Assembly (NCBI GenBank): GCA_021234155.1
Contig: JAJEKV010000010.1
Location: forward strand, 22,592,833 to 22,656,832
Direction: 5' to 3'
DNA: 64,000 bases
Source: Isoetes taiwanensis
Lineage: Eukaryota > Streptophyta > Lycopodiopsida > Isoetales > Isoetaceae
The notes beneath the pieces are model-generated. The model searched no databases. It saw nothing but the letters and a program-made list of their open reading frames with translations, and was not told where the DNA came from. Made by a program: the position numbers and the translations under genes. Positions 23,285-59,330 of the stretch are shown in pieces (position 1 is the stretch's first letter; each line of letters begins with the position of its first letter).

Positions 23285-24023
23285 TGTTAAAATTATTAGT
23301 CAACTAGATGTTTCAACTTGAAACAAGCTTCAACCAACTTTGCAAATCAAGTCAAATAATATCTTAGATCAATTTATGATCTATACAACAAGCACTTAGT
23401 TGAAATTAAGCATGAATTTCCTATAGAAATTCATGGATGCAAAGGAGCCACAATATGGTCCCTAATCCTTTGCAATAAAAGGAATTTCAACCTTTAGCTT
23501 AAAATCATAGTCATTAATGCTTCAATCTACTGTAGCTACGGGATTGCCTTAATCACTGTAGCTATAACCAAACACGAACGTTAATGACTTAAAACCTCTT
23601 CAGTTCATTCGATCTGCAGTCTGGGTACGTCTTCAGCATCAATGCATCCATATTTTATGTTGTACTCCGTCGGTTTAGCTCGGATAGAAGTTCTATCTTT
23701 AGATTTCGGTGGCCTCGAGATATCCCACAGACGTTATGCATTAAATCCAGCACTTTCGAATTATCCCACAGACGTTATACGTAAAGTTGGCTTGAACCAT
23801 TGAACCATTAGATCAATGTTAAAATATCAAACTCCCTTTCAATATTTCGTGCACCTAGTTTCCATTGTATCACCATAACATTCAAATTTGTATTCTTCAA
23901 ACCACCTTACCAAGTTAACCTAATATGTTCTTACCCTGACTTTAGCTTAACCCTTTCCTTCAGTCTGCAATCTCTGAGTTTAACTGCAAGAAGAAAGATT
24001 CACATGACCATTGATTTCTATCA
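23285..24023 (-). repeat. 3' LTR of the copia element
   Basis: 739 bp, nearly identical to 41483-42221. It is bounded by TG...CA and the TATCT target site. Confidence 0.97.
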
Positions 24024-25658
24024 TTCCCCCTTCATGTAATCTTTCTTGTTATTGTATTGTACTGCATCTCTTAACTCCTGAAATCTCCCGAGTGACAATG
24101 CTTTTGTCAGCAAGTCTGCTAATTGATTGACTGTGCTAACATAAGTAAGATGTACCATATTTTTTTCCACCATATCTCTTATAAAATGAACTTCCATCTC
24201 TATATGCTTACATCTTTCATGCAGTACAGGATTTTTAGACATAGCAATGCAACTTGTGCTATCACAAAAAATGACTGTAGGTTCTGTTTGCTCTACTCCA
24301 AGTTCAGCAAGCAATCTTCTTTCCCATACAACCTCTTTAGTCAATAAAGTTGCAGCATTGTACTCTGCTTCTGCACTAGAAAGAGCTATGCTGCCCTGCT
24401 TCTTGCATTTCCAGGCTATAGGGGCACCTCCCAATAAAATCACATACCCTGATGTTGATTTTCTCTGATCTAAGTCACCTGCCCAATCAGAGTCACAATA
24501 TGCCTTTAATTTTAATTCATCTGAGTTATACATAATACCAATATCCAGAGTTCCCTTAAGATATCTCAAGATTCGTTTAGCAGCTGTCCAATGTTCCAAA
24601 CCAGGGTTATTGTTGTACCTACTCAATATATTTACCCCAAAAGCTATATTTGGTCTTGTGCAATTTGCTAAGTAGGACAAACATCCAATTAATGACCTAT
24701 AAGGTTTGTTCTCCATTTGTCTTTTTTCCTTCTCAGTTTTTGGACACATATGAGCTGAGATTTTGTGCCCTGGTACTAATGGAGTCTGTGTTGCATTATA
24801 ATTCCTCATATTGAACTTTTTCAGCGTATTCATAATATGAGTTTGCTGGCTCAATGTCAACATCTTATTTTCTCTATCCCTGCATACTTCAATGCCAAGA
24901 AACCTCTTAAGTTCACCTAAGTCTGTCATTTGAAACCGTTTACTGAGCATTTGTTTGCAATGAGATAAAATATCATTGTCATTTGCAATCATTATATTAT
25001 CATCAACATATAGGGCTATAATGCACCAGAACTTTCCACTATTGTACCTGTATAAATTTCCATCACATTTTAATTTTTCAAAACCTTGCTCTAAGAGGTA
25101 ATTGTCCATACATTTATACCACTCATGTGGTGCTTGCCTTAGCCTATAAAGTGCCCTGTTTAATTTCCAGATTTTTCCTTCTTTTTTCTCAAACCCTGGT
25201 GCAGGCTTTAGATAAATTTCTTCCTCAAGTTTAGCATTAAGAAATGCAGTGCTCACATCCATGTGATGAATTTCCAAGTTACATGAATTTGCAATGGCCA
25301 GCAACATTCTCAAACTATTAATTTTGACCAATGGTGAAAATGTTTCATCAAAGTCTAAACCTTTCTTTTGAGTAAATCCCTGTGCTACAAGCCTTGCTTT
25401 GAATTTTTTTGTTTTCCCATCAATGCCTGGCTTTATTCTAAAAATCCATTTACTGCCAACAACATTTTTGGCTAGTGGCTTATCAACCACAGTATAGGTG
25501 TCTGTTCTTTTGAAAGATTGCATCTCATCCTCCATAGCTTTTCTCCAATTTTCTGCATCATCACTTTCAGTAGCTTCTTCAAATTTATTTGGCATTTTTT
25601 CAGTCTCTAATACTAGAATATCAAACACAGAATGAATTTCACCTTTACCATCATGATG
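24021..25658 (-). CDS. Copia pol C-terminal half: reverse transcriptase and RNase H
   Basis: An open frame of over 540 codons. The RT starts near the WRKAMEDEMQSF and GSKWIFRIKPG motifs and continues through ARLVAQGFTQ, HHMDVSTAFLN and the catalytic YVDD at ALYVDDNIMIA. RNase H follows with AYCDSDWAGD, STSGYV, SSAEAEYNA and LLTKAL. It ends ...NNKKDYMKGE just inside the 3' LTR. The upstream continuation lies at 38811-39666 beyond the gypsy insertion. Deleting the insertion and one TSD copy would keep the frame, so this gene was intact when gypsy landed. The first codons before about 25658 belong to the gypsy LTR. Confidence 0.95.
   Translation of the reverse strand, partial: HHDGKGEIHSVFDILVLETEKMPNKFEEATESDDAENWRKAMEDEMQSFKRTDTYTVVDKPLAKNVVGSKWIFRIKPGIDGKTKKFKARLVAQGFTQKKGLDFDETFSPLVKINSLRMLLAIANSCNLEIHHMDVSTAFLNAKLEEEIYLKPAPGFEKKEGKIWKLNRALYRLRQAPHEWYKCMDNYLLEQGFEKLKCDGNLYRYNSGKFWCIIALYVDDNIMIANDNDILSHCKQMLSKRFQMTDLGELKRFLGIEVCRDRENKMLTLSQQTHIMNTLKKFNMRNYNATQTPLVPGHKISAHMCPKTEKEKRQMENKPYRSLIGCLSYLANCTRPNIAFGVNILSRYNNNPGLEHWTAAKRILRYLKGTLDIGIMYNSDELKLKAYCDSDWAGDLDQRKSTSGYVILLGGAPIAWKCKKQGSIALSSAEAEYNAATLLTKEVVWERRLLAELGVEQTEPTVIFCDSTSCIAMSKNPVLHERCKHIEMEVHFIRDMVEKNMVHLTYVSTVNQLADLLTKALSLGRFQELRDAVQYNNKKDYMKGE
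24024..24033 (-). promoter_or_regulatory. Polypurine tract of the copia element
   Basis: The minus strand reads GAAGGGGGAA directly before the 3' LTR. It would prime plus-strand DNA synthesis. Confidence 0.85.
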
Positions 25659-25663
25659 CCTTT

Positions 25664-27295
25664 TGTGACGGTCCAGGGGAACATACGCCATAAATACGTA
25701 TATTCCTGGATCCGTCACCATACAAGTCTATCTTCATAGCCTTGTATACCATAGATTGTGGCACTAGGGGGCATGGCTAAGTTATTCTCATAACTTAGCC
25801 AACCATAGGTTAAGCCATTATCCACGTGGCCTTAACCTATTGGGGCACCGCCACACAGGACTCACCCGATTGGTGCCACGTGGCATCCTAGGTGGACCTA
25901 ACTCATATAGACATAAACCCTAACCCTAGACCTCTTTCCAGCCCTAGCACCCGAGAGACTCACCTACTGCTCGAAACCCCGCTTCAACATCGCTTGTCAG
26001 TGGCATAGACTGGTGCAAAGAGCCCCAGGTAGACTCGCTCTTGGAGTAGGAGCGGCATCTCGTGAGCTCCGGAGACCATGGAGGCACACGGATCTGGAGG
26101 AGAGCATCGAGGAGCGGTATGTAGGATAGTGGTTGTGATAGCTCATCCGGAAATTAGCATTCCGGATATGCTAGTATTTTGTATCTAGAGTAGAGCCATC
26201 CTAGAACCCATATTCAACATCTTGAACCCTAATCAAGGAACCCTAACTATTAGTTAGATTTGTATGATTAGGTTAAGATGTTATTCTTATGATTATTCTC
26301 ATGATGTGATGATTATGTGATGATGGTTGATCATGTTTGCTCCTCTTGTATTGGGAAGGGGGTAGAGACCTAGAGCCATATGTAGTATGCTCCTAGAGTA
26401 GACCCCTTAGTTCCTATTAGTTGCGGCAGGCATAGGAGCCCACCGTGCTATTGAGGCTATGATATGACTCAAACCATATATAACAGGGCTAGAGGGAAAG
26501 TGGAGGGAGGATCCCCCGCCGAGGGGGGCTTCGGGATCCCATAGTGGGCTAGGCTTATGGTCGGTCACTTCGTGTGGGCCGAGCATGGGTCCGACACCTC
26601 CTGGGGCAATGGTGTTGCCCTGCCTCTTGAGAGCTGCAAGTGTTGGCTTGGCTCTCGTTTTGGGGGTTCATCCAGTGCAGAATCGTGTGTCGCCACGATT
26701 CTCTAGCCGCCCGCGGCACCTCTAGATCCCGGAAGGGGAGATGCAACCCTTCCCGCCTCATCGGACCGTGGAGATGCAACCGAGTAGTCCCGATGGGTGA
26801 TGCCATGGGGTTGCGTATCCGGAAGGCTAGAGTCCTGTCAGAGCCTGATCTAGCCCATCTGCAAAGTATGCACAGGAGGGGCGGATGGAGTGGTCAACCC
26901 TAGCCATTGTTCTATGCCAGCCCTACGCCATTGCCATGACTTCGGTGCGCTCTATCTTGAGGCCTAGCCGGCCAGTCATCCTCCTTACGAGTCTGAGCCG
27001 GGGTAGGAGCTCTCATGTTTTATGGTTCGTGATTATCATCTTTGTCTTGGATTATGAGTGATGCACTACCCTTCGAGGTAGTATTTGTATATGTTGATGC
27101 TAGTTCTGACGTGTTATCGCTTCCGCCTTTGTTATAGGAGCCCATAGGGGAAGGGCGCAAAGACACCTTCAGAAGCCCCCCGCACTAGGAGTCACCTCGA
27201 GTCTGGGGTAGACGAAGGGCCCATGCGGTTGTTGAGCCTGGATGGGGATTTCTCGCCGAGTGTACTACGGGCCGACGCTTAGCGAGAGCGTCACA
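25664..27295 (+). repeat. 5' LTR of the gypsy element
   Basis: 1,632 bp. It matches 37158-38805 exactly over long AT-rich stretches, but differs by many one- to three-base indels in GC-rich parts. Confidence 0.97.
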
Positions 27296-27296
27296 A

Positions 27297-27308
27297 TGGT
27301 ATCAGAGC
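27297..27308 (+). promoter_or_regulatory. Primer binding site (initiator Met-tRNA) of the gypsy element
   Basis: TGGTATCAGAGC begins two bases after the LTR end and is complementary to the 3' end of plant initiator Met-tRNA. Confidence 0.95.
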
Positions 27309-27867
27309 GATGTTCTTGGTTGACCAAGAACTAGCACTGACCATAACCATGAAGTAGTCTAACAGGCCTATAGGGGTGTGAAATAAACATTTCCACCATT
27401 GAACCGCGAAAATGGGGGAAAAATTTTTCTCCTAGGTAGTGGGTCAGGAATTAGGCTAAGTGTTAGACGAAGATTTGAGTGAGTCAAACGAACCTTCTAG
27501 TAAATTTGGAGTGAAAATTATGCATCTGCATCAAATTTCACCTAAAATGGGTCGAAGAATCATGCCAATCGGAGACCCAGGTGAAAAATGGCACAAATTC
27601 ATAAATTGCACTTCGAACCATTAGGAAAATTCGAAAATTTAAAGATAATATCAATTAATATAGGTTAATTTATACATTAATAGTTAAATAATTATTAAAT
27701 ATCTTGTAATTAATAAGGGGGGCTAATAAATAGGGGTAATTATGGTAGGAGAATATTCCCAGGGACCCTCCTTTTTAAATATCTGACACCTCATTTTCTC
27801 TCTCCAACCCTTCACCTCCAACTCTCTCTTGCTCACCCTTTCACACCCATTTTCTCAACCATAAGAT
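27309..27867 (+). promoter_or_regulatory. Leader/promoter-like region before the H3-like ORF
   Basis: An AT-rich stretch (27640-27780) with TTTTAAATATC is followed by a CT-rich leader (27785-27860) rich in CTCTCTCC, ending just before ATG 27868. This looks like a plant core promoter with a pyrimidine-rich 5' UTR. Confidence 0.4.
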
Positions 27868-28967
27868 ATGGCACGCACCAAGCAAACCTACAGGAAGCCT
27901 GGAACAAGACCTACCCTCTCCATGGCGCAGGCAGCAGGGCGGCATGTGAAGAAGATCCCGGAGCACCTCCGACCCAAGAAAGGGGAAGAGGAACTTCCCC
28001 CCAGCAGCAGCAGCAGCGAAGCCTCCTTCCATGATGCCGAGGAGAGTCCCAGCAGCAGTTCTCCGTCGGCAGGTACCCAGAGGACCGGCGAGTCTCGCCA
28101 TTTCGGGGCCACAGACACCGAGGTGGAAGAAGAGGTGGAAGAAATCGTGCACAACAACAGAAGAAGCCGGGCCCCTTCAAAGGCCCAAAAAGAAGGGAAA
28201 GGAAAAAGTAGCAGAGTGGCCAGAGGAGAGGGCCGCTAGGAAGAAAAGGGAGAGAGAGGGAGGAGCCGAGGGAGCAAGAGCGACGGACGAAGAAGAGGAA
28301 CGATGGCCCTCGCCGGACCATCGTTATTGATGAGCCTCAGCGGGAGGAAGAGGAGCAGGAGGGCGGGGATGAAGAAGAGGAGGAGGAGGGGCAGCAGGAC
28401 CCCGACGCTAGGCCACCCTACCCTAAGTGGCCGGAACCACCTAAGGTGGTGAAGAAACAAAAGGTAGGGGAGCGGGCATTCGCGCTCCAGCAGGACCGGG
28501 AGTTCAAACGGAAGATGGTGGCATACAAGGAGTACCTTCGTCGTTGGACGAGGTACAATGAGTGGTATTGCCGCCAGGAGGTGCAGCGCGTCGTGGTGGG
28601 CGGCAGGCCGAAGAAGAACCAGCCCAAGCCACCCCCACCTAGGCCGGAAAAACCCAAGAGGGTTCACCACGGCGAAACGGCACAAAGACATGCCCGGGTG
28701 TTTAGGGAGATTCGGCACTTCCAGATGTGCACGAATCTCCTGATAAGGAAGGCGCCCTTCGAGCGTCTCCTTAGAGAGGTCTTGCAGCAGTTCCGGACCG
28801 ATTATAGGGTTACCCCTCTAATGACCCGGGCCCTGCAAGAGGCTTCCGAAGCAGAGCTGGTCCAGCTCTTCGAGGAAGGGAACCTCTGCGCTATCCATGC
28901 TAAGAGAGTTACCCTTATGCCTAAGGATATTCCCTTAGCACGGAGGATCCGCAGGGAGAGGCCCTAG
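27868..28967 (+). pseudogene. Histone H3-like protein with long charged insertion, carried by the gypsy element
   Basis: The ORF starts MARTKQTYRKP, which is the histone H3 tail (ARTKQT, then R8 K9) with A7 to Y and S10 to P. AQAAGRHVKKIPEHLRP follows, recalling H3 residues 24-43. A Ser/Glu/Lys/Arg-rich insertion of about 230 residues comes next. From 28692 the frame encodes a complete H3 fold: [66 protein letters not shown], stop. Loop 1 has the canonical H3 length, not the longer CenH3 form. K4, R8, K9, C110, K115 and K122 equivalents are present; K56 is Met and K79 is Arg. Frame 1 holds to about 28200, then frames 2 and 3 carry on, so at least one indel, probably two, breaks this copy. The identity as H3 is secure; the role in the element is unknown. 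Confidence 0.9.
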
Positions 28968-29654
28968 GCCTCAAATTTTGTAAATTTTGTAGAAGAATTA
29001 AAATTTTCATGTAACTATGTTTCTTATTAATATAAAAGTTATTTTCCTCTATAATTAGAAAAAATGTTGTATGCTTGAAATGTAGGAAATAGAACCCAAT
29101 CGTAGTAGAATTCTTCATAGCATGCCTAGAAACACCCTAGAAATCATGACTACAACAAAATTTTGGCAAAAAAATCATCTAAAATGCTAAAAATTGGGCC
29201 AGTCGGGTGAGACCGCGCCAATGGCCTCTGCGTCAATGCTGACGCTGGCTTTCATGGATTCACCCGCCTACCCCCAAAATCTTGCTTTTAGATGTCAGTT
29301 TTGCTCAAAATAAGTTGCTAGTTAGGTTAGAATTGGCCCAATTAGCCATATTAGCATCTTTAAATTCCCAAAAATGACCAAAAATTGGCCCAAAAATGAG
29401 CCAACCGGGTGAGATCACGCCAAACGCTGTCATCATCGGACGACGCTGAGGCCATCCGCTCGGATTCACCCGGGTCAGCCCATCTTTGAGCCAAATTAGC
29501 CAAATTTGATCCAACAAATTGCCATGTAGTGTTTCTTGCTTTGTTTTGCTTAAGTTTGCACTTCATGGTAGTTCATTTGGACACCCAGAGCCATAGAACC
29601 AAGGTCGTCTTAGGTAGGTACCTTTTTGCACGAACCCCGAGGTCACCCATAGTC
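28968..29654 (+). other. Spacer with two hairpin-forming direct repeats
   Basis: Copies at about 29190-29270 and 29380-29480 share TTGG(C)CC...CGGGTGAGA at one end and GATTCACCCG at the other. Each copy can pair its own ends (CGGGTGA with TCACCCG) over about 60 bases. AATATAAA and TTGTAAATTTTG near 28980-29035 may serve as a polyadenylation region for the H3-like gene. Confidence 0.5.
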
Positions 29655-29661
29655 TATAAAA
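29655..29661 (+). promoter_or_regulatory. Candidate TATA box of the second accessory ORF
   Basis: CTATAAAAATAGG lies about 115 bp upstream of ATG 29773, a normal plant spacing when the 5' UTR is about 85 bp. Confidence 0.4.
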
Positions 29662-29772
29662 ATAGGCCCCATTTGCCATTTTTCTTCCTACAGAACTGCT
29701 CCCAGCCCCTTAGGCGATTTTCTGATCCTCCACTGATCTTTGCAAGCCATTTTCTACACCCTTTCCTGCTCA

Positions 29773-30863
29773 ATGGCGCCCAGCAACTTTGAGAGATGGT
29801 ACAATGCTGCCAGCCATATCCATCAGCTTCCAGTAGATCAAGCCTTCTCTGTGTTTGATCACTTGTTTGATCTTCATGCAACTTTGACTAGAACACCCTA
29901 CTACACGGACATTATGTGCCAATATGACCAGCAGGTCCTGCCTTGGGAAGTTAGACTGCCTCCTAGGGGAGGGAATTGGGTTTCCCTTGAGACACTTACC
30001 CAAGCCTTAGGTCGAGAGTTGGCAGGATCCAAAGGCAAGAAACAGCTATGGGATAGGACTAGGACCATGCCCGATTACATGACCTGCAGACATAATAGGC
30101 ATAGGTACCTTTCAGCTCAGACAGCCCTTGCCCTCTTCATGCACTATAAGTCAATCAACAAAGTAGGGGAACCCTCTGTTCAGCCCTTTAGACTTAGCCA
30201 CTTGATACCCGTGAGCCCGGGATCAAATCCCCGAATATAGAGTCCTCCGCCTACGAATACTATGGCACGACGTCAGGGGCACCATCTCTACAGATCCATG
30301 AAGACTACGAGCAGCTAGGGGAGCAGAACCCAGAATGGGAGAGCAGGGAGGCAACAAGAATGCGGAGGTATGCGTCGAGGCATGACGACGACGTGAGAAC
30401 AGCTACCGACCCACCAGTCGGCATCACAGCTCTGTCACCGATAGTCATCGACGGGGAGGAGTACATTTTTGCAAATGACATCCTCAACTTGTCCCATCAT
30501 TGCAGAATGGGTCTTCGAATCGATGAGCTCTTGGGCATGATAGCACACGGGAAGAGCGCAGACCTCATCGACTACTCATACCAGGAGATCCCAAGGGAGC
30601 TGGCGGAGAGACACTCTTATGCTGGGGAGACAATGTCGGACATAGCAGCCTATCAGCAGATAAGGGAGATCTATCGACAGCAGGAACCTATCATCTCAGA
30701 GGAGGAGTTCCAGCAGATACAGAGCACACTCTACAAACCAGGGAAGGGCCCAAGCTCAAGCCCACCGAGCCGAGCCGAGCATGAGGGAAGGGTCCAAAGA
30801 AGATCAACTTGGACAATGCAACCAAAGATGTGGAGGGATCATGAAGACCCGATGGCGCTTTGA
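29773..30863 (+). CDS. Second accessory ORF of the gypsy element, unknown function, one frameshift
   Basis: Frame 1 starts MAPSNFERWYNAASHIHQLP and runs to about 30203, then the protein continues in frame 3 from 30204 to the stop at 30861-30863, about 363 residues in all. The first half is globular and aromatic-rich (WEVRLPPRGGNWVSLETL, CRHNRHRYLSAQTALALFMHY). The second half is acidic and helical (IVIDGEEYIFANDILNLSHH, AYQQIREIYRQQEP, SEEEFQQIQSTLYKPG). I do not recognise the family. It is not gag, since a separate capsid-like region lies downstream at 32178-32369. Its sense orientation and place after the H3-like ORF suggest it is a regular part of this element lineage, or a second captured host gene. 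Confidence 0.5.
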
Positions 30864-31501: not shown

Positions 31502-32940
31502 TTGATGATCAATCCTTGCAAAGAAGGAACTCAAGTCGCGGATCTCAAGATCCCGACCACCACGCAATTGGGTACCAAGGAACTTGTTTGGCGAGAAACA
31601 GAAGACGTTGGAGCATATATGTCACCGAGGCAGTCAACGCAAAAGGTTGGTGCGATGAGGAACCGTGATGCAACACCTCATCAACCGGGCGACACCTCTC
31701 ATGAATGCACAGAAGATGGTCCTCCACCTCCACCTTGTTTTCCCGTGGTGACGGTCCCTCGCCAGAAGGGGAGGGCAACCAGGGGGAACGCCGTGGATAG
31801 GAGAAGGAAGAGGAGAACCAGGAGTCCATCATCATCTAGCTCCGGCTCATCGATAGCTCTTCCAGTGAGGATAGCTCTAGTCTCACGATCGGTCGGGCAC
31901 ACCCTAAAGCAAGGAAAAAGAGCAAGAAAGACAGTGACTATCGGAAAAAGGTGGATAGTGCTATGAGCAATGTATGGAAGACAAGGAAGCTCTACCGGTT
32001 CGGGAAAGACAGATCGCATGGAGGCTGAAGCATGGCTTGATGAAATGGAAGAATTTGGCAACTCATACGGTATGAAAGACAAGGACATAGGGGAAAGTTG
32101 CTACAGCCTAACCTTATTGGACCGGCAAGGATCTGGTGGAAGGGATATGCTAAATCCAACAAGCTGAAGAGGAACAATTGCGTTTTAAGACCTTCAAAAA
32201 GGCTTTCCCGAAGCACTACGTGCCAAGGTCTCATACTAGTAGACAGATTCGCCAGCTTTTACAGTTGAATCGGGGTAGCTTATCGCTGGCTAAGTATACC
32301 GGCGAATTTATGAGGCTCAGCCGCATGTTCCCCGAGTCTCGAGAGGCAAGCCGCGGATACTTACATTGAGGGGTTGAACAGCAATATCAAGAGGCTTGTT
32401 AGAGCAATCAACCCAAGGTCAGTTCTTGCAGCCGAAGATAAAGCTATAAGTTTGAGGAGGCACCAACTCCACTCCAGAAGCAACAACCTTCGTGGGTAAG
32501 AGAGTTCGCAAGATCGTGACAATATCGTGGTAAGCAATCAGCAGCCTACACCATCGGGGAGTCAGCAGCAAGGTAAGGGTCGAGCAAAGCTTTTGGGGAC
32601 CGTAGCCACGAATGCATCATCAGGGCAGCGCTCTTAAAGCCGCTCTAGACAGTCTGCCGAAGGAAAAGAGACAGAGTGCATTGAGAAAAAGCTATGTTTC
32701 AAGGTGCTTCCAGCCGGGCAATCAACACATGATTGTCCATTCACATGCGGTCGGCCTTGGCGTAACTCTTGGATTGGGACTCCCCAACGGAGAGAACGGC
32801 GGGGACGACGACCCAGCCAGAGGGTCGGGGACTTCATAGATGGTGAGTGCCACATATGTGCAAACATTGAGACAGTGATATAGAGAATCAGTCAACTGTC
32901 ATCGGCCAGCGACGGGATCATAGATAGTAATTCTTATCCT
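31502..32940 (+). pseudogene. Gypsy gag (capsid and zinc knuckle), frameshifted
   Basis: 31502-31966 is a basic, Pro/Ser-rich N-terminal part. 31990-32369 has the retrotransposon gag core: EAEAWLDEMEEF, then FKKAFPKHYVPRSHTSRQIR, LLQLNRGSLSLAKYTGEFMR and LSRMFPESREA. Around 32690-32745, CFK....GQ.STHDCPF is a damaged CCHC knuckle. The pieces fall in different frames. Confidence 0.8.
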
Positions 32941-32949
32941 CATAGATAC

Positions 32950-34100
32950 ATGTAGCTCTCATAATTTTGCATCTCCTAGATTGGTCTGCTCTAATGAAGA
33001 ACAAGGTATTGAAGTCTAAGCCAAGGCCAAGAGCTATGGCAAAACCATACCATTCGCACACTAAGGGGAGGAGGATCACCTTTGACATAGACCTTAGTGG
33101 GGCTAAGTGGCCGATGGGAGCAGAAGTCATGGATATCGGGAAGATATGATCCGATAGTGGGGATGGAATTTTTGAAGCCCGCCAAAGCCATGATTGATTG
33201 CGACCGAATGAAGTCACCATGGCGGCACCGGGCGACAAGTTGATAGTGAAAGGTAAGAAGCTAGATTCTCCTATGCGGTGTATTTCTTTGAAGCAACTAA
33301 GGAGGAGTATAGAAAGGAATAAGGTGGATTACATCTTGAGGATGGAATCGCTTGAGCGAAAAAGCGGGATGGAAGTGAACCAAAAGGAAATCGATTGCCC
33401 AGCAGATAGCAAGGCTTATTTCAGAGTTCAAGGATATATTTCGGATGAAATCCGGCGATTTGCCACCTTATAGGGGTGTGGAATGTGAGATCACATTGGC
33501 TCGGGATCACGAAGCCTACGAAGAAGGCCATATAGAATGAGCACCCGAGAATTGATTGAGCTCAAGAAACGACTTGAAATTGCTCGAGCTTGGATTTATA
33601 AGAGCAAGTGTGTCTCCTTTCGGAGCACCTATACTCTTTGTGAAGAAGAAGGATGGGAGCTTAAGAATGTGCATAGACTATCGCCAGCTTAATAAGCAGA
33701 CGATAAAGAACAAGTATGCATTGCCAAGGGCGATGATCTAATGGACCCGGTTACAAGGAGCAAAGGTATTCTCTAAAATTGATTTGAGGTCGATACCATC
33801 GATAAGAATAAAAGAAGAGGATATCCATAAGACCGCCGAGAACGCCGGTATGGTCACTTTGAATTTACGATAATGCCCTTTGGACTATCGAATGCTCCAA
33901 AGAACGCGTTTATGCGCCTCATGAACGACATCTTCAGAGACTTCTTGGATGAGTTTGTTATTGTCTTCTTCGACGACATCCTAATCTACAGCAAGTCCCT
34001 TGAGGAGCATTGTCAGCATCTCAGGAAAGTGTTGGAGAAGTTGAGACGTCATCGGTTGTATGGGAAGCTCTCTAAGTGCCACTTTGCAACAGTAGAGTAG
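32950..34100 (+). pseudogene. Gypsy protease C-terminus and reverse transcriptase, frameshifted
   Basis: 32967-33250 resembles the protease end (GRRITFDIDLSGAKWPMG, then NEVTMAAPGDKLIVKG). RT motifs follow: [57 protein letters not shown] and the catalytic box [11 protein letters not shown] (the usual FIDD is FFDD). At least four frame changes are needed. Confidence 0.9.
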
Positions 34101-34109
34101 AGTACTTGG

Positions 34110-34930
34110 GGCATGTAGTAACATCCGAGGGAATCTCCACAGATCCATCTAAGATTGAGGCAATAGTTGATTGGCCAGCTCAAGGAATGTGGCGTAAGTA
34201 AGAAGCTTTCTCGGGTTGGCGGGATATTACAGAAAGTTCGTCAAGGACTTTGCGAAGTGGGCGTCCCCCTTGTCGGACCTCACTAAGGCCAAGAAGATTA
34301 AGGATTGGACTAGCCATTGGTTAGAGAAAGTCCAAGCTTCTTTTGAGAAGCTTAAAGAGGCCCTAACGACAAACCGGTGCTTGTCCTCCCGACCAGTAAA
34401 GATAAGTTGGTAGCAACAGATGCAAGCAAGATAGCAACAGGGGCGCCTCTTGATGCAAGAAGGAAGGGTAGTCGCCTCGACTCGAAGAAGATGAACGACG
34501 CCGAAAGCAACGCTACCCAAGCCATGATCGAGGGCTGCTAGCCATTGTCGGGGCATTGAGGATATGGAGGCATTATCTGGCTGGGAAGGAAGTTTCACCG
34601 GATAATCGATCACCGAGCCTTCAAGATCTTTTCACCCACCCACTCCTCAACTTAAGGCAAAGGAGGTGGATGGAATTCCTGAGGAGTATGATTTTGATAT
34701 TATATATAAGCCCGGTAAGCTTAATGTTGTAGCGATGCCCTCTCGTGAGACCATTTCGACAAGGACGCATTGTAATGCGATTTCCACTCTTTTGAGTGAG
34801 TTTGGCAAGAAGATTGAGGAGTCCTTGCCAACGATGTGGACTTCAAGGAGGTATGGGAAAGCCTTTCCAAGGAAGCCGTAATGCATAAGGAGCCGGAAGT
34901 CTTCAAGCATTATAAGAAGGAAGGCAACCC
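34110..34930 (+). pseudogene. Gypsy RNase H and connection region, frameshifted
   Basis: GYYRKFVKDFAKWASPLSDL is the RT-RNase H connection. VATDASKIATGAPL, then SKKMNDAESNATQ and YDFDIIYKPGKLNVVA, mark RNase H. Several indels and stops are present. Confidence 0.85.
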
Positions 34931-35800
34931 GTTGTACCACAAGCATAAGTTGTGTGTGCCCGAATCATCGGGGTAAGGAAGCTAATTCTTCATGACACAC
35001 ATAACAGCCCAATAGCGGGCATCTTTGGCTTCATGAAGACCTATTTCAAGATTCAAGTAGCTACTTCGGCCAGAATGAAGAGGCGGATAGCTGCATATAT
35101 TCGGATTGCCGCTTATGTCAGACTAAAAGCGAGCAACCCCGATTCCGTGTGCTCTTGAGCCATTGGGGGTGCCAAATGCAAAGTGGGAGGTCATAAGCAT
35201 GGATTTCATCACGGGTCTCCCTAGAACTCTTCGAGGCAAGGATGCATTGATGGTTGTCATAGATAAGTTATCTAAGATGGCACATTTTGTGCCTTGCAAG
35301 ACTACCGACACCGCATTAGATAATCGCCAAGTTATTTGTAAGGGAGATTTTCAGACTCCATGGCATGCCTCGGAGATAATATCCGATAGGGATTCCAAGT
35401 TTATGAGTGCCTTCCGGCAGGACCTCTTCAGCACCATTCGCATCGAAGCTCTCCATGAGCACGGCATATCATCCCCAAACAGATGGCCAGACGGAGAGGA
35501 CGAATCGGATCATTGAAGACATGCTTCGAAGCTATGTGTGGAACAAGCAGTCCAAGTGGGATGAGTACATCCACTTGGTGGAATTCGCCTACAACAATTA
35601 TAGCGAGGAGTCATCTCGATGTCTCCTTTCATGGTAAATTACGGTACCGTGCTTAACCCCTGATACCTGGCACAATCCTGTGTCCAAGGTAGAAGTATCC
35701 CAGCAGATGTTAGGGGATATGCAGCAGCTAGTGGAAGAAGTAAGGGGTTATTTATTGGCAGCAAGAAGTCGGGCGTAAGTGTGTAGCCGACAAGCACGGG
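34931..35800 (+). pseudogene. Gypsy integrase, frameshifted
   Basis: HDTHNSPIAGIFGFMKTYF belongs to the HHCC finger. The catalytic core shows WEVISMDFITGLP (first Asp), ISDRDSKFMSAF (second Asp) and HPQTDGQTERTNRIIEDMLR (Glu), then FAYNNY. The core crosses a frame change near 35440-35470. Confidence 0.9.
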
Positions 35801-36240
35801 ACCGTAAGAGAATTCAAGGCAGCGAGATAGCGCCCGGTTGAAGATAAAGGTGAAGCAAGCCAAGCTGCGGATTGGGAGCTGCAAGAAGCTTGCCCCTAGG
35901 TGGGCTGGTCCGTTCAAGATTTTGGAGAGTGGGCTCTCAAGCCTACAAGTTGGATCTTCCAACCCATCTCAAGGTGCACAAGGTCTTCCACGTAAGTTTA
36001 TTAAAAGGCACAATCCTAACCCCGAGGAGGTTTTGGATACTCCAACCTTGTTGGAAATGACGGAGGAGCAAGTAGAAATAGTGCCTGAATTGCTTCTTGA
36101 TAAGTCATTCAAGAAGACTAGGAGGTCTCGGTTCCTCTCCAAGATTTGGTTAAGTGGAAGCACTTACCCGTGGAAGATGGCGACATGGGTATTGAAGCAA
36201 GACTTGGAGAAGCAATACCCGTGAGTTTATGAAGGAGTTT
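35801..36240 (+). pseudogene. Integrase C-terminus with chromodomain-like tail
   Basis: KLRIGSCKKLAPRWAGPFKIL is the GPY/F-type module and KVHKVFHVSLLK follows in another frame. The final part has PELLLDKSFKKTRRSRF, then, one frame over, LVKWKHLPVEDGDM, which is the (Y)LVKWKG-P-E-ATW core of chromoviral chromodomains. Chromodomains of this kind bind methylated H3 or heterochromatin partners and direct integration. Confidence 0.65.
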
Positions 36241-37144: not shown

Positions 37145-37157
37145 AAGGGGGGGAGAA
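37145..37157 (+). promoter_or_regulatory. Polypurine tract of the gypsy element
   Basis: AAGGGGGGGAGAA lies directly before the 3' LTR start at 37158. Confidence 0.95.
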
Positions 37158-38805
37158 TGTGACGGTCCAGGGGAACATACGCCATAAATACGTATATTCC
37201 TGGATCCGTCACCATACAAGTCTATCTTCATAGCCTTGTATACCATAGATTGTGGCACTAGGGGCATGGCTAAGTTATTCTCATAACTTAGCCAACCATA
37301 GGTTAAGCCATTATCCACGTGGCCTTAACCTATTGGGGCACCGCCACACAGACTCACCGATTGGTGCCACGTGGCATCCTAGGTGGACCTAACTCATATA
37401 GGCATAAACCCTAACCCTAGACCTCTTTCCAGCCCTAGCACCCAGAGACTCACCTACTCGTTCGAAACCCCGTTTCGAACATCGTTTGCTGTGGCATAGA
37501 CTGGTGCAGCAGCCCCAGCAGGGTAGACTCGTTCTTGGAGTAGGAGCGGCATCTCGTGAGTCGGAGACCATGGAGGCACACGGATCTGGAGGGAGAGCAT
37601 CAGGAGCAGGTATGTAGGATAGTGGTTGTGATAGCTCATCACGGAAATTAGCATTCCGATATGCTAGTATTTTGTATCTAGAGTAGAGCCATCCTAGAAC
37701 CCATATTCAACATCTTGAACCCTAATCAAGGAACCCTAACTATTAGTTAGATTTGTATGATTAGGTTAAGATGTTATTCTTATGATTATTCTCATGATGT
37801 GATGATTATGTGATGATGGTTGATCATGTTTGCTCCTCTTGTATTGGGAAGGGGGGTAGAGACCTAGAGCCATATGTAGTATGCTCCTAGAGTAGACCCC
37901 TTAGTTCCTATTAGTTGCGGCCTGTGCATAGGAGCCCACCAGGGCTATTGAGGCTATGATATGACTCAAAGCACCATATAACAGGGGCTAGAGGGAAAGT
38001 GGAGGGAGGATCCCCCACGAGTGGGGGCTTCTGGGATCCCATAGTGGGCTAGGCTTATGGTCTGGTCACTTCGTGGGGCCGAGCATGGGTCCGACACCTC
38101 CCGGGCAAATGGTGTTGCCACCACGCCCTCGAGAGCTGCAAGTGTTGGCTTGGCTCTCGTTTTGGGGGGTTCAGTCGGGTACGAATCGTGTGTCGCCACG
38201 ATTCTCTAGCCGCCCACGGCACCTCTAGATCCTGGGAAGGGGAGATGCAACCCTTCCTGCCTCATCGGACCAGGGGAGATGCAACCCGGAGTAGTCCCGG
38301 ATGGGTGATGCCATGGGGTTGTGATCCGGAAGGCTAGAGTCCCGCGAGCCTGATCTAGCCCATCTGCAAAGTATGCACAGGAGGGGCGGATGGAGTGGTC
38401 AACCCTAGCCATTGTTCTATGCCAGCCCTCGCCATTGCCATGACTCGGTCTGCTCTATCTTGAGGCCTAGCGGGGTCACCATCCTCCTTCACGAAGTCCG
38501 AGCCGGGTAGGAGCTCTCATGTTTTATGGTTCGTGATTATCATCTTTGTCTTGGATTATGAGTGATGCACTACCCTTCGAGGTAGTATTTGTATATGTTG
38601 ATGCTAGTTCTGACGTGTTATCGCTTCCGCTGTTATAGGAGCCCATAGGGGAAGGGCGCGCAAGACACCTTCGTGTTCCCTTCCCGCACTAGGAGTCACC
38701 TCAGAGTGCGGGGTAGACGAAGGGCCCATGCGGTTGTTGAGCCGGATGGGGGATTTCCTGCCGAGTGTACGGCCGGGCGCCGTACGTTTAGCAGGGAGCG
38801 TCACA
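37158..38805 (+). repeat. 3' LTR of the gypsy element
   Basis: 1,648 bp, TGTGACGG...GCGTCACA, followed by the target copy CCTTT at 38806-38810. Confidence 0.97.
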
Positions 38806-38810
38806 CCTTT

Positions 38811-41482: not shown

Positions 41483-42221
41483 TGTTAAAATTATTAGTCA
41501 ACTAGATGTTTCAACTTGAAACAAGCTTCAACCAACTTTGCAAATCAAGTCAAATAATATCTTAGATCAATTTATGATCTATACAACAAGCACTTAGTTG
41601 AAATTAAGCATGAATTTCCTATAGAAATTCATGGATGCAAAGGAGCCACAATATGGTCCCTAATCCTTTGCAATAAAAGGAATTTCAACCTTTAGCTTAA
41701 AATCATAGTCATTAATGCTTCAATCTACTGTAGCTACGGGATTGCCTTAATCATTGTAGCTATAACCAAACACGAACGTTAATGACTTAAAACCTCTTCA
41801 GTTCATTCGATCTGCAGTCTGGGTACGTCTTCAGCATCAATGCATCCATATTTTATGCTGTACTCCGTCGGTTTAGCTCGGATAGAAGTTCTATCTTTAG
41901 ATTTCGGTGGCCTCGAGATATCCCACAGACGTTATGCATTAAATCCAGCACTTTCGAATTATCCCACAGACGTTATACGTAAAGTTGGCTTGAACCATTG
42001 AACCATTAGATCAATGTTAAAATATCAAACTCCCTTTCAATATTTCGTGCACCTAGTTTCCATTGTATCACCATAACATTCAAATTTGTATTCTTCAAAC
42101 CATCTTACCAAGTTAACCTAATATGTTCTTACCCTGACTTTAGCTTAACCCTTTCCTTCAGTCTGCAATCTCTGAGTTTAACTGCAAGAAGAAAGATTCA
42201 CATGACCATTGATTTCTATCA
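41483..42221 (-). repeat. 5' LTR of the copia element
   Basis: 739 bp, paired with 23285-24023, followed by the target copy TATCT at 42222-42226. Confidence 0.97.
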
Positions 42222-42530
42222 TATCTTTCTCTTGTAAAGCTCACACGCTCTTCAGACTGAACCGCAATCACATCATGCAAATGGCAGTTTGTCTCAATGT
42301 GATAAAGTTGGATATGAACTAGGTCTGTTGCACAGCCCTGATACATTATTTATCTATTTTAGTTTCACTATTGTTTCTTACATTCCTTCAGAAACCAAAA
42401 ACCAAGATTTAAAGACTACTAAACCACAAATCTGAACACTTATGCTGGTTTTTATGTAGCTGCATGCCCTTTTTTGCTGCATGCATGTTATTTTTGCATA
42501 TTCTACTAATGCAATAGCATCTTTTATAGG

Positions 42531-54704: not shown

Positions 54705-56978
54705 TCATGGATGTGCATAAGCATTTGCCATGAGCACATACCCCGCTCCTGACTGAGGTTCTAAATGAATAATTTCATGAAAGCATCTCCTCCCTAGCTC
54801 TGTATTACCGTAGCTCCTGCACGAACTAAGCAGAGATTTCCATCCAATAATATTTGGCTGCTGACTAGAATTGAGAAAATGTTGCGCATCATGCCAGCAC
54901 CCAGCACGTCCAAGAAGATCAATCATACAGTTATAATGGGAAATGCTTGGAAGTATGCCATTGACTTCAGTCATGAACCCAAAAGACCAATGACCTTCAT
55001 CAACTAAGCCTGCACGGCTAAAAGTAACAAGAATACTGGCAAAGGTCACTTCATTCGGTTTAAAACCCTCCTGCACAATGTCCTGGAGGCATTGCTCAGC
55101 CAGTGCGACATTGCCAGCAATAGCATATCCCGCAATTATTGCATTCCATGAAATAATATTTTTTTTTGGCAATGCATTTAGGATTTTGCATGCCTCTTCC
55201 ATGTTTCCACACTTTGCATACATGTCAATAATGGTACTTACCATGGCAACATCTAATATAAGTTTATCTTTCCTAATACAATCAAGAATAATCCTTCCTT
55301 TCTCTATGGCACCCAAAATACCACATGCTTTTAGAGCACTAAAAAATGTAATTTCATTGGGCTTTATGCCAGTATGATGCATGCTTTCAAAAAGTTCCAA
55401 GGCAGGAAAACCTTCCCCTTGGTGTACGTATCCTGCAATCATTGCATTCCATGACACTACATCAGTCTTTTCAAGCGTTTGAAAGACATCCCAAGCCTCC
55501 TCCAAATGCCCACATTTCGCATACATGTCAACAAGCGTATTGGCAACAGTGGTATCTGATCTATATACGCCATCAAGAATTTGTTTATGGATATACCTAC
55601 CCACCTCTATGGCTCCAACACGTCCACATGCTCTTAAGACACTTGCAAATGTTGCTTCATTTGGTGCTACACCCTCCTGCTTCATCTTTTCAAACAGGTT
55701 TAATGTAACAGAGACTAAACTATGGTCTGCATATCCTGCAAGTAAGGCGCCCCAGGAGACAATATCACGGATGGACGAGTTCTCAAAGATTGTGCATGCC
55801 TCCTCAAGGCTTCCACATTTTGCATACATGTCAATAAGAATATTCTGCAGTCCATCGGATGTTATTCGGTCTTTTAATACATAGCCATGGATAAGCTTCC
55901 CCTGCTCTATAACACCTAAGTTGCCACATGCCTTCAACAATATCAAGAATGTTATCCTATTTGGCCTTATGCCATCAACCTGCATCCTTTCCAGAATATG
56001 AAGGGGACAGACCCCATCTTCATCTTTGGCATATATTGTAATAATTGCATTCCATGAAACCTCATTCCGGTTTTCCAAGTTCTTGAATAACTTGTAGGCC
56101 TCTAAGGGGCTTCCACACTTTGCATAAACATCAATAAGGGTATTCTTTACCACAACATCTAGTATAAGGCTTGAACTTATGAGTTTCTCATGAATGAGCC
56201 TTCCCAGTTGTACAGCTCCTATATAGCCACATGCTTTCAAGACACCCAAATATACAACCTTATTGGGGGTTATGTGATCCTCCTCCATTTTCATGAAAAG
56301 ATCCAAAGCATAAGAACCTTTTCCTACCTGTACAAAGCCTCCAATAATTGCACCCCAAGAGAAAACATCCCGACTTTGCAGCTTCTGCAGAACCTCAATG
56401 GCCTCTTCCAAACTTCCACATTTGGCATACATGTCAATCAGGGTGTTTCCTATAATAACATTTGATGACATTTCCAGATTGATAATTTGTTCATGTATGA
56501 GCCTTCCCCAGTTCAAGTTAGCCATACAGGAACATGCTTTTACAACGATAGAGAATGTGACTTCATTAGGCTTTATCCCTTCCTGTTGCATCTTCTGAAA
56601 ACACTTAAGAGCTAGAAAGGCCTCTTCATGATGAATATATCCATTAATGAGTGCACCCCAGGTAACCACATTTTTATTTGACAGTCTATCAAACAACTGG
56701 AGAGCTTCTTCTAAACTACCACATTTAACGTACATATATACGAGCGCTGTTCCTAAAAGAATGTTCAGTTCAAGTTTGCTCTTCATAACCTGATAATGAA
56801 TTAGTCTTCCCTGTGCAAGGGCTGGTGCTTCTGTACAAGCTTTGACAAGGGCAAGGTAATGATCTAACTCTCCTTTGAAACCTGCCTGTTGCATCCTCTG
56901 ATACAATTCAAAAGCAATCTCGGGCTGCCGAAGCATTGAGATCATCGGACCCCATATCCCTGCACTGGATTTCCTCAT
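54705..56978 (-). CDS. PLS-class pentatricopeptide repeat protein, ending within the E domain
   Basis: Intronless frame of 757 residues from ATG 56978; a TTG five codons upstream also lies in frame, but ATG is the first credible start. Repeats alternate in the P-L-S order, with the hallmarks NTLIDMYAKCGSLEEA, VVSWNAMIAGYVHQG and GIKPNEVTFxxxLKACG recurring about every 100 residues along the whole chain. The last part, HYNCMIDLLGRAGCWHDAQ, then WKSLLSSCRSYGNTELGRRC, is the start of the E domain. The protein stops at GYVLMANAYAHP, so E is incomplete and there is no DYW deaminase domain. Such proteins bind organelle transcripts and usually guide C-to-U editing; a protein lacking DYW would need a partner. 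No clear transit peptide is seen. Confidence 0.93.
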   Translation of the reverse strand: MRKSSAGIWGPMISMLRQPEIAFELYQRMQQAGFKGELDHYLALVKACTEAPALAQGRLIHYQVMKSKLELNILLGTALVYMYVKCGSLEEALQLFDRLSNKNVVTWGALINGYIHHEEAFLALKCFQKMQQEGIKPNEVTFSIVVKACSCMANLNWGRLIHEQIINLEMSSNVIIGNTLIDMYAKCGSLEEAIEVLQKLQSRDVFSWGAIIGGFVQVGKGSYALDLFMKMEEDHITPNKVVYLGVLKACGYIGAVQLGRLIHEKLISSSLILDVVVKNTLIDVYAKCGSPLEAYKLFKNLENRNEVSWNAIITIYAKDEDGVCPLHILERMQVDGIRPNRITFLILLKACGNLGVIEQGKLIHGYVLKDRITSDGLQNILIDMYAKCGSLEEACTIFENSSIRDIVSWGALLAGYADHSLVSVTLNLFEKMKQEGVAPNEATFASVLRACGRVGAIEVGRYIHKQILDGVYRSDTTVANTLVDMYAKCGHLEEAWDVFQTLEKTDVVSWNAMIAGYVHQGEGFPALELFESMHHTGIKPNEITFFSALKACGILGAIEKGRIILDCIRKDKLILDVAMVSTIIDMYAKCGNMEEACKILNALPKKNIISWNAIIAGYAIAGNVALAEQCLQDIVQEGFKPNEVTFASILVTFSRAGLVDEGHWSFGFMTEVNGILPSISHYNCMIDLLGRAGCWHDAQHFLNSSQQPNIIGWKSLLSSCRSYGNTELGRRCFHEIIHLEPQSGAGYVLMANAYAHP

Positions 56979-59330
56979 GCATGGAGTCTTCAAATCAGAC
57001 TCTCAAACAAATCAAGAAATCACGATGAGGATTGATAAATGCACAAGCTTTCACTTCAAGGATCAAAGTATACATCCCAAAATAAATTTGACAGCAAATA
57101 CTTGCGCCTGAGACCTAACTGGCCACGGAACCAAATGTGAGGCCTTTGTCATCTTTTCTTTCCTACACCGCTTAATAAACCAAAACTTTGGAGAGCCATT
57201 CAGATAAATGACTGATTTTAAGCGCAAGCCCGACATATCGCATTTCTTACTACTGCTGCCCAGAAAAATATTCATGGATAACATCGCCAAGAGGCTTATC
57301 TTGCGTCTCTGCTCCTCTCTTCTGTTACTTGATGGCCATGCTATCAAATAAGTGACCTCTTGGCACCACTTTTTCGGATAAAGGCCTGCACCACAAAAAC
57401 CAACTCATATTGGTTTTTCAATAGATGCCACATAGCGTAAAAGCCGGTAAGGGCGTAAGGGCATTTTATATTGATACTAAACGGGTGTCCGACATTGTGG
57501 GGCATGACATTGTGGGGCATAAATACGGGTCTATTGTAGGCAATTATGAAGTTGTAGACATGCTTATCTTCTTATATTATTTTTATTTTTATTATTAAGT
57601 ATGTCGTCAACAAAACCCTAATCCTAACCCTAATTTCGACATTTAGGGTTCTGATATATCGGGCCAGGGTCCTCCCGTTTTCGTGCAGTCCAGGTCCAGC
57701 GATAGGAAGAGGCTGTCGGATTCTTTTAGGAAGAGGCCGTAGTAGAGCTTTACAGTATCTTTCTGCTACCATGGCTGCATGAACCGGGCAGAAGCTTCAG
57801 GGTTTCATTTGAGTGGATTAAAGCCTGTCAGAACAGAAATGAGGGTTTCTGTGCTGTCTGTCGTCCATGGCTATGGCGGAAATATCTGATGTCGTTCTGT
57901 CCTTCGATTTTGGTGATAGCATGGACCGGATTTTTTAAGAAGCAAGTTTTAAATATTTTAATATTGCCTTGAACTGTCTATTCTGGTGGCTTGGCTTGGC
58001 TTTGTTAAATTTATTGTTCTTATACTCCTCTAAATGGGAAGGATTGATCAACCAACAGGTTTGCCATTGAATTGTTATGGCCAGTCAGCACATTTATATT
58101 GGCAGAGAGCCTGTTTTTTATTAGAATGAAGGCTATGAGACGAATGAATTAGAGCAGCTCAAACAGTTTGAGCTGCAAGCTATAGATTTCGGTCGCTGCA
58201 AAGCCGTTATTGGAAGCTGGTAGTAAACCTTATTCCATTTTCAGTTGTGGATAAGAACTATAAATTGTCATCAGTTAATCAAGGTATGTTTGATATTTTA
58301 GTAATTTGTTTCTTTATCTTTCCTAACAACATGCAGCTATTCTAAAACTTTAATTCTACCTCATCTGTATGCACTCTTTAATCAGGATAGAGGAGTTCAA
58401 AGTTAAAAAGTCATCTCCATTTTCAAGCTTGAGCATGTGTGCGGACGACCAAGAAGCGTCCAGGTTAAACAGGTTGGAGCAAGGTACAATCACGATCTAA
58501 TAAGAAATTTATAGCACTGCTTATTTATAGCAACTATGATGCCTAAAGGGCTTCTTAAAAACGGCAAACATTGGCTCTCAAAAGGTCTGGAGTCGGACAT
58601 CTGTGTCAGGTATCAATAAAATGTACATTATTTCCTTCCCAAATTATGCAGTATGCAGGTCTTTCATCACATAGAAGTTTTGCTATATGTACATTATGAC
58701 AGCTTTGATGCGTGAAATTCCCCTTAGTTGTTCACCCCAATGTATTGGAAAGTAGATTATCAAGGGAAGAAAGTGCTCAATACTATGTAAATGCTAAAAT
58801 TGAGTTGCACATCAGACTATGTTGGGTCCAGATCGATTACCTTAAAAACTCTCCCTTTTTTTTTTTTTTTTTGAAGAATATAAGAATATATTAAACCACT
58901 AGAATGCGATCAAGTACAATGATAAGTGCTTTTTTTTTCTTTTTTATTTAGATTAAGATTTGCTGCAGTTTGTGTGAGTCTCTACAGCTCCCAAGGATGA
59001 ATTTCGTGTTGTCCTCCATCTTAAAGCCATGATTCTAGATTAAACATTAACGATGGCTATGCGTAAGGTCTGCAAAAACCACTCAGGTTAAGCCTGACGT
59101 TTTTTTATTGACCCTAATGTTCTAGACAAGGTAAGAAAGTGCTTAATGCTAAGTGTAAATTCTAAAATTTAGTTGCACATCAGATTATGTTCGGCCCAGA
59201 TCGATTATGTTCGTGCGAGTCTAAAGCCATGATTCTGGATTAAATATTAACAGTGGCTAATGTTTTCAACAACGATACTGCAGCTTGGTATGAGTCTAGT
59301 CACCTCCTGTCATGGGAAGCATTTAGAACA
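56979..59330. other. Intergenic, promoter side of the PPR gene, with telo-box
   Basis: 57605-57642 contains AAAACCCTAATCC and TAACCCTAATTTCG, telo-box-like motifs often found in plant promoters of organelle-biogenesis genes. It lies about 630 bp upstream of the PPR start. 57650-57930 is GC-richer and may be a divergent transcript leader. 58858-58873 is poly-T. No second gene could be supported. Confidence 0.4.

Follow-up and report, generated by a model that had tools for sequence, protein, structure and literature searches.

The window analysed here, that is, the whole stretch of 64,000 nt from Isoetes taiwanensis (assembly GCA_021234155.1, contig JAJEKV010000010.1, positions 22,592,833–22,656,832 of the forward strand), contains a complete Ty3/gypsy-type LTR element on its plus strand that carries a histone H3-like gene. 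Flanking target site duplications of the sequence CCTTT mark the borders of the insertion (25659–25663 on the left and 38806–38810 on the right). The 5' LTR (25664–27295, TGTGACGG...CGTCACA, with TG...CA ends) and the 3' LTR (37158–38805) were found as a self-BLAST pair with 92.8% identity. The primer binding site (PBS) TGGTATCAGAGC (27297–27308), which we take to be of the initiator-tRNA-Met type, and the polypurine tract AAGGGGGGGAGAA (37145–37157) were read from the sequence. Pfam matches identify a gag remnant (32154–32366, Retrotrans_gag 6.8e-08), fragments of the reverse transcriptase (33831–34097, RVT_1 1.4e-17) and of RNase H (34472–34729, RT_RNaseH 2.6e-09), a weak integrase core fragment (35127–35513, rve 0.0073, below Pfam's own cut-off) and an SH3-like piece of the integrase C-terminus of the Tf2-1/gypsy type (35854–36057, SH3_Tf2-1 9.8e-10). 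This order of domains is that of Ty3/gypsy elements. The frames are broken, including that of the reverse transcriptase, and no Chromo domain was matched by Pfam at E 0.1 in this decayed copy, where a chromodomain-like stretch is visible by eye only. At least 28 open frames are needed to tile the 4.7 kb of gag-pol, whereas two each suffice for the H3-like gene and for ORF2, another additional gene that follows it. The whole gypsy element is inserted into a copia element of the opposite strand. The copia element is young, with LTRs at 23285–24024 and 41483–42222 (minus strand) that show 3 differences in 740 positions, and it is interrupted by the gypsy element. Elsewhere in the window, an open frame of 765 aa on the minus strand (54705–57002) encodes a PPR protein (Pfam PPR_2 2.2e-102), which fits a plant host.

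The H3-like gene is located between the PBS and gag, in the same orientation as gag-pol. It is preceded by a leader (27309–27867) with the TATA-like pattern TTTAAATA 94 bp upstream of the ATG. The first frame (27868–28239) starts with MARTKQTYRKPGTRP at 27868, encodes a tail beginning with MARTKQTYRK and an acidic, serine-rich part, and continues in the same frame to a stop codon at 28237–28239. A second, overlapping frame (28212–28967) codes first for a charged linker (from 28212 to about 28700), then for the complete globular part of H3 (about 28704–28964), and closes with a stop codon. A previous interpretation of the same DNA, made from the letters alone and referred to here as the sequence-only reading, had described a single ORF leading from MARTKQTYRKP to an H3 fold. 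Both ends are present where it had placed them, but in the window copy they are split over two frames. Among 2932 ATGs on both strands of the window, the one at 27868 is followed by a match to nine of ten N-terminal residues of H3, with five as the next best value. The 1.1-kb gene can be tiled with two open frames, compared to a mean of 7.6 for shuffled sequences, none of which (0 of 200) reached so low a number.

The second frame matches the Pfam Histone family with an E-value of 6.3e-28, and in a comparison with PDB chains ordinary H3 ranks first (E 2.2e-31). From helix αN to the C-terminus, 58 of 87 residues are identical to canonical plant H3, and no gap is required. Since this alignment is ungapped, the length of loop 1 is canonical, and the longer loop 1 of CenH3 is absent, as judged by comparison with canonical H3 and not with CenH3 sequences. 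In this respect the sequence-only reading, which regarded loop 1 as canonical and not CenH3-like in length, was right. An ordinary H3 has about 136 residues and a continuous modifiable tail; the intact copies described below encode 362–378 aa. The element protein is thus H3-derived and differs from an ordinary H3.

The assembly of the window itself (1.658 Gb) was searched for sister copies with an 80-residue part of the fold as query. The first look gave 8230 candidates, and at least 150 genomic places, including the window copy, were scored with the fold, all with E < 1e-38; this value counts scored matches and not the copy number of the family. A stop-to-stop frame of at least 355 aa is present in 41 of the 150 scored matches. 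Sixty copies were fetched, namely ranks 2–21 in list order and 40 hand-picked ones that lean to long frames. An unbroken frame from MARTK to the stop codon (362–378 aa) was found in 24 of the 60, a share that does not represent a family-wide rate because of the hand-picking; among the 20 copies taken in list order the frame is intact in 11. A start coding for MARTK is present upstream of the fold, in any frame, in 51 of the 60 copies.

The surroundings of the gene recur as well. At least half of each part was recovered for the LTR in 34, the leader in 39, the H3-like gene in 40, the spacer in 40 and ORF2 in 37 of 40 longer pieces. As a rule the parts are arranged in the order LTR, leader, H3-like gene, spacer and ORF2, the exception being the rearranged copy L041 with three matches to the fold. 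The PBS is exactly conserved in 32 of the 40 sister pieces, 1.40–1.48 kb upstream of the fold, and a 3' LTR lies at the expected distance in all three intact-frame copies that were checked. Since all sister pieces were retrieved through the H3-like gene, these counts refer to gene-bearing copies; copies lacking the gene are invisible to this search. The sequence-only reading had proposed that an H3 gene was captured by the element and is retained as a regular part of it, and named restriction of the ORF to this one copy as the observation that would speak against it. The fold recurs at at least 150 places, with the same surroundings in the pieces that were fetched, and, as described below, is under strong purifying selection, so that this proposal is supported. 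For the use of the gene, the sequence-only reading had named marking or disruption of chromatin and a decoy role as possibilities.

The LTRs of the gypsy element posed a separate problem. Between the two LTRs in the window there are about 60 small indels and 45 substitutions; one or two of the indels are artefacts at the end where the 3' LTR had been cut 15 bases short for this comparison. Three further LTR pairs (L011/L069, L022/L070 and L042/L071) show a similar indel-rich pattern, with 24–40 gaps and 46–58 mismatches. LTR divergence was dropped as a clock, given indel-rich LTRs within a copia element whose own LTRs are nearly identical. Candidate causes are assembly errors, conversion between copies or LTRs that are prone to indels. 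Assembly error is disfavoured, because three indel-rich copies have unbroken H3 frames.

Two parts of H3 are clearly kept in the protein: the first ten residues (ARTKQT..RK) and the globular part from αN to the C-terminus. About 250 residues with a high content of Glu, Lys, Arg and Ser take the place of most of the tail. In the 24 intact copies the residues M, A, R, T and K at the start are invariant, as is Thr6, while Gln5, Arg8 and Lys9 are each present in 23. The proposed retention of K4 and K9 in the tail is thereby confirmed, with K4 in 24 and K9 in 23 of 24 copies. Residue 7, an Ala in H3, is Tyr in 16 and Ala in eight of these copies, and the residues following Lys9 vary (PG, TG, YN, YH and others). 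Two or more types of tail therefore circulate.

Beyond residue 10 the resemblance of the tail to H3 does not exceed that of shuffled sequences (P 0.76 for the window copy and 0.06–0.27 in eight of the 24 intact copies), and in these nine sequences the stretch corresponding to residues 11–44 of H3 does not stand out from shuffles. A motif close to VKK(I/V)PEHLRP occurs in 22 of 24 intact copies; it resembles residues 35–43 of H3 by eye, at a level not above shuffles. Likewise, a second copy of the H3 tail directly before the fold was sought and its similarity did not exceed shuffles (P 0.41). Within the fold, a stretch of 26 residues, which in H3 spans the H3–H3' interface and a portion of the surface bound by ASF1, is highly conserved in the intact copies. 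AlphaFold models had mean pLDDT values of 44 for the fold frame and 53 for a piece of ORF2, a low confidence at which they support nothing.

Selection on the gene was estimated from the fetched copies. For the fold, dN is 0.032 and dS 0.631 over the 60 copies, which corresponds to a dN/dS of 0.052 (1658 of 1770 pairs usable). The sequence-only reading had suggested testing dN/dS on the fold, and the low value agrees with its proposal. The ratios are 0.135 for the linker block (60 copies, 1613 pairs) and 0.154 for the tail block (55 copies, 1174 pairs), taking copies intact or not. When only intact copies are considered (24 copies, with 222–276 of 276 usable pairs), dN/dS is 0.063 for residues 1–10 of the tail, 0.170 for residues 11–45, 0.115 for the linker and 0.047 for the fold. 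Conservation within the fold is uneven: in the intact copies the last 38 columns have a dN/dS of 0.004 and the preceding 40 columns one of 0.105. In H3 the near-invariant C-terminal part takes part in the contact between H3 and H3' and in the ASF1 surface. A stop codon inside the fold was found in one of 60 copies.

The age classes of the variants point in the same direction. In 41 sequences (40 copies and the window), codon variants present in at least three sequences comprise 50 synonymous and eight non-synonymous changes and no stop codon; singletons comprise 16 synonymous and 15 non-synonymous changes and one stop codon (variants seen twice were excluded). Selection is thus evident in the older variants, and the young ones look nearer to decay. 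Furthermore, of the 29 fold residues that differ from canonical H3 in the window copy, 16 require at least two base changes, compared to 3.2 expected under neutral decay, and this number was reached in none of 4000 simulations at each of two values of kappa. When residues 84–90 are omitted, the values are 11 of 22 versus 1.9 expected (0 of 3000 simulations). The absence of stop codons is by itself uninformative (P about 0.21). The multi-base changes demonstrate a long evolution under constraint, a measure that does not separate evolution in the element from earlier evolution in the host. The constraint is placed within the element because the sister copies bear it.

Ranking the copies by similarity of the fold protein lowers dN of the fold, so that its ratio may be somewhat low. 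Parts outside the query, namely the linker, the tail and ORF2, still have dN/dS values of 0.11–0.21. At the mean dS of 0.40 in the set of 41 sequences, neutral evolution would have produced about 80 non-synonymous differences between the folds of two copies, and about three are seen; the ranking bias is hardly sufficient to explain the low ratio. In the copies retrieved, the H3-like gene is a conserved additional gene under purifying selection and no chance insertion.

As a separate observation, the H3 fold has a synonymous divergence of 0.41 in 15 copies, close to double the values for ORF2 in the same 15 copies (0.235) and for the LTR (0.215, 55 pairs). Leader and spacer have diverged by 0.11 (55 pairs), so the H3 fold exceeds them about fourfold. 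Exchange of segments between lineages, CpG decay and pressure on silent sites are candidate causes of the high silent divergence of the H3-like gene.

Downstream of the H3-like gene, a non-coding spacer (28968–29772) contains the TATA-like pattern TATAAA 118 bp upstream of ORF2. Its predicted RNA folding is more stable than that of shuffled sequences (z -4.78, 20 shuffles), and it contains two diverged copies of a GGGTGAG...TTCACCC unit, identified partly by eye. ORF2 (29773–30863, starting with MAPSNFERWYNA) is broken over two frames in the window copy. In 15 of the 40 pieces a start of the MAPSNF type is followed by a frame of at least 140 codons, the longest encoding 509 aa. With dN/dS values of 0.11 (first 160 columns, 15 copies) and 0.21 (five long copies), ORF2 is a real second additional gene under purifying selection. 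No Pfam family above its own cut-off and no PDB chain at E 1 matched ORF2, and its second part had no relative among annotated proteins at E 0.001. A local comparison of the leaders of the H3-like gene and ORF2 gave a similarity not above shuffles (P 0.18).

Outside the assembly, 5984 annotated proteins match the fold frame, and the best 120 of these 5984 bear animal names. An alignment of 27 of those best 120 gave a majority line that corresponds to two joined H3 units. The linker part had no match among annotated proteins at E 0.001, and the element family was not seen in this collection by a search that requires shared five-residue words and proteins of comparable length. No match came from viral or prokaryote contigs.

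Captured or additional genes in mobile elements are known, and several systems resemble the present one in part. The elements Retrosat2, RIRE3 and RIRE8 are likewise large Ty3/gypsy elements with an extra gene, ORF0, before gag-pol, and they share long LTRs with similar inverted ends (TGTCAC...GTGACA in the Retrosat2 type and TGTGAC...GTCACA here), as described in PMC3485330. According to the same description, ORF0 was found in grasses only and is hydrolase-like by model inference, which sets it apart from the H3-derived gene reported here; a term search of that paper gave no occurrence of 'histone'. Retrosat-2 is listed under the chromovirus lineage Tekay in PMC6317226. Gypsy elements of orchids carry a gene for an AlkB-type m6A demethylase, again a regulator of host type as additional gene, which the authors tie to host surveillance of transposable elements; in contrast to our case it is an RNA demethylase in a 25-kb element, with activity shown in vitro (PMC9289625). 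The text section on the screen of 121 angiosperm genomes in that paper names no histone domain.

A precedent for the captured gene is found in hAT DNA transposons of Dothideomycete fungi, in which histone H3 was likewise taken up and multiplied. Truncation affects 90% of the copies in P. fijiensis, where RIP has inactivated every copy except the original, while P. tritici-repentis may have many active copies (PMC6710886). Those are DNA transposons, in contrast to the LTR retrotransposon described here, in which most of the tail has been replaced and purifying selection is seen. Giant viruses (Marseilleviridae and Medusavirus) are also selfish elements with core histones of their own; they have relatives of all four core histones, whereas only H3 was found here (PMC8015243). 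Host gene parts inside LTR elements are known from maize Bs1 and other transductions. Bs1 contains host gene segments, and the present element contains a complete fold in many copies under purifying selection (PMC7264820 and PMC13317346). The word histone is absent from the main text, as available, of a review of additional ORFs (PMC7264820), and no LTR retrotransposon with a histone gene appeared among the matches listed in our literature search, which covered titles and openings of abstracts of mostly non-subscription literature. The sequence-only reading had known of no plant LTR element with an H3 gene. For LTR elements this holds within our searches, but capture of H3 by a transposable element as such has a precedent in the fungal hAT elements (PMC6710886). 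Within the reach of our searches, an LTR element with a selectively maintained H3 is new.

On balance we consider it probable that this Ty3/gypsy family captured an H3 gene long ago and carries it, between the PBS and gag, as an additional gene whose product acts as an element-encoded H3 variant in chromatin. The protein would pair with H4 and H3 chaperones, as is suggested by the near-invariance of the C-terminal part of the fold, and would enter nucleosomes either on element DNA or more widely. Such nucleosomes would present the H3K4 epitope and no recognisable K14–K27 stretch. Recognition of K9 may be altered because residue 7 is Tyr in 16 of the 24 intact copies and Ser10 is replaced, and the insert between tail and αN could hinder normal nucleosome packing. 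Nucleosomes of this kind may resist part of the silencing marks, which would favour transcription of the element. The later steps, in which the variant is placed on the DNA of the element and withstands silencing marks, are inferred. The more specific proposal, that a working variant histone with a rebuilt tail shows the K4 epitope, lacks most silencing sites and lets the family escape or rewrite host silencing, is put forward tentatively and has a somewhat less than even chance of being correct.

Three other explanations were weighed against a variant histone. A protein that stays outside nucleosomes as a soluble decoy could tie up ASF1, CAF-1 or the writers and readers of H3K4 and K9 and thereby weaken silencing. 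The unchanged ARTK in all 24 intact copies next to a remaining tail that is unrecognisable above shuffles would fit such a role, as would the long charged insert separating tail and fold, and histone mimicry by viruses is reported for influenza NS1. However, a pure tail decoy would have no use for the fold, which is conserved more strongly than any other part of the protein. We regard this explanation as rather unlikely. Still less probable is a co-factor of the particle or of integration that coats the nucleic acid of the element or marks element chromatin for return of the integrase. The location of the gene, after the PBS and ahead of gag on the strand that also encodes gag-pol, is compatible with this idea. 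In addition, no partner has been identified for the type II chromodomains of plants (PMC6317226), and captured histones seem to serve giant viruses in packaging their DNA (PMC8015243). Against it, the window copy has no Chromo domain at the Pfam threshold used and is inserted in a copia element and not in its own kind. Moreover, we know of no case in which H3 alone, without H4, packages nucleic acid. A functionless passenger, be it a transduced host gene or a chance insertion in one copy, is very improbable and was rejected: a gene transduced by a plant LTR element is usually limited to one or a few copies (PMC7264820), whereas this gene, scored at at least 150 places, has the same neighbours throughout the fetched copies as a rule, with a fold dN/dS of 0.052 at a dS of 0.63.

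Plant hosts silence retrotransposons largely via DNA methylation and histone H3 marks. An element-borne H3 may allow the element to add to host chromatin or to mimic it. If the reading as a variant histone is correct, this would be, among the cases that we found or know of, the first LTR retrotransposon in which selection has maintained a 'transposon histone'. The element also offers a natural experiment, since it can reveal which portions of H3 are indispensable once the tail is replaced. An element with its own H3, in which the K4 end is kept and most of the tail exchanged at a dN/dS of about 0.05, would make the chromatin arms race between element and host testable at the level of the nucleosome.
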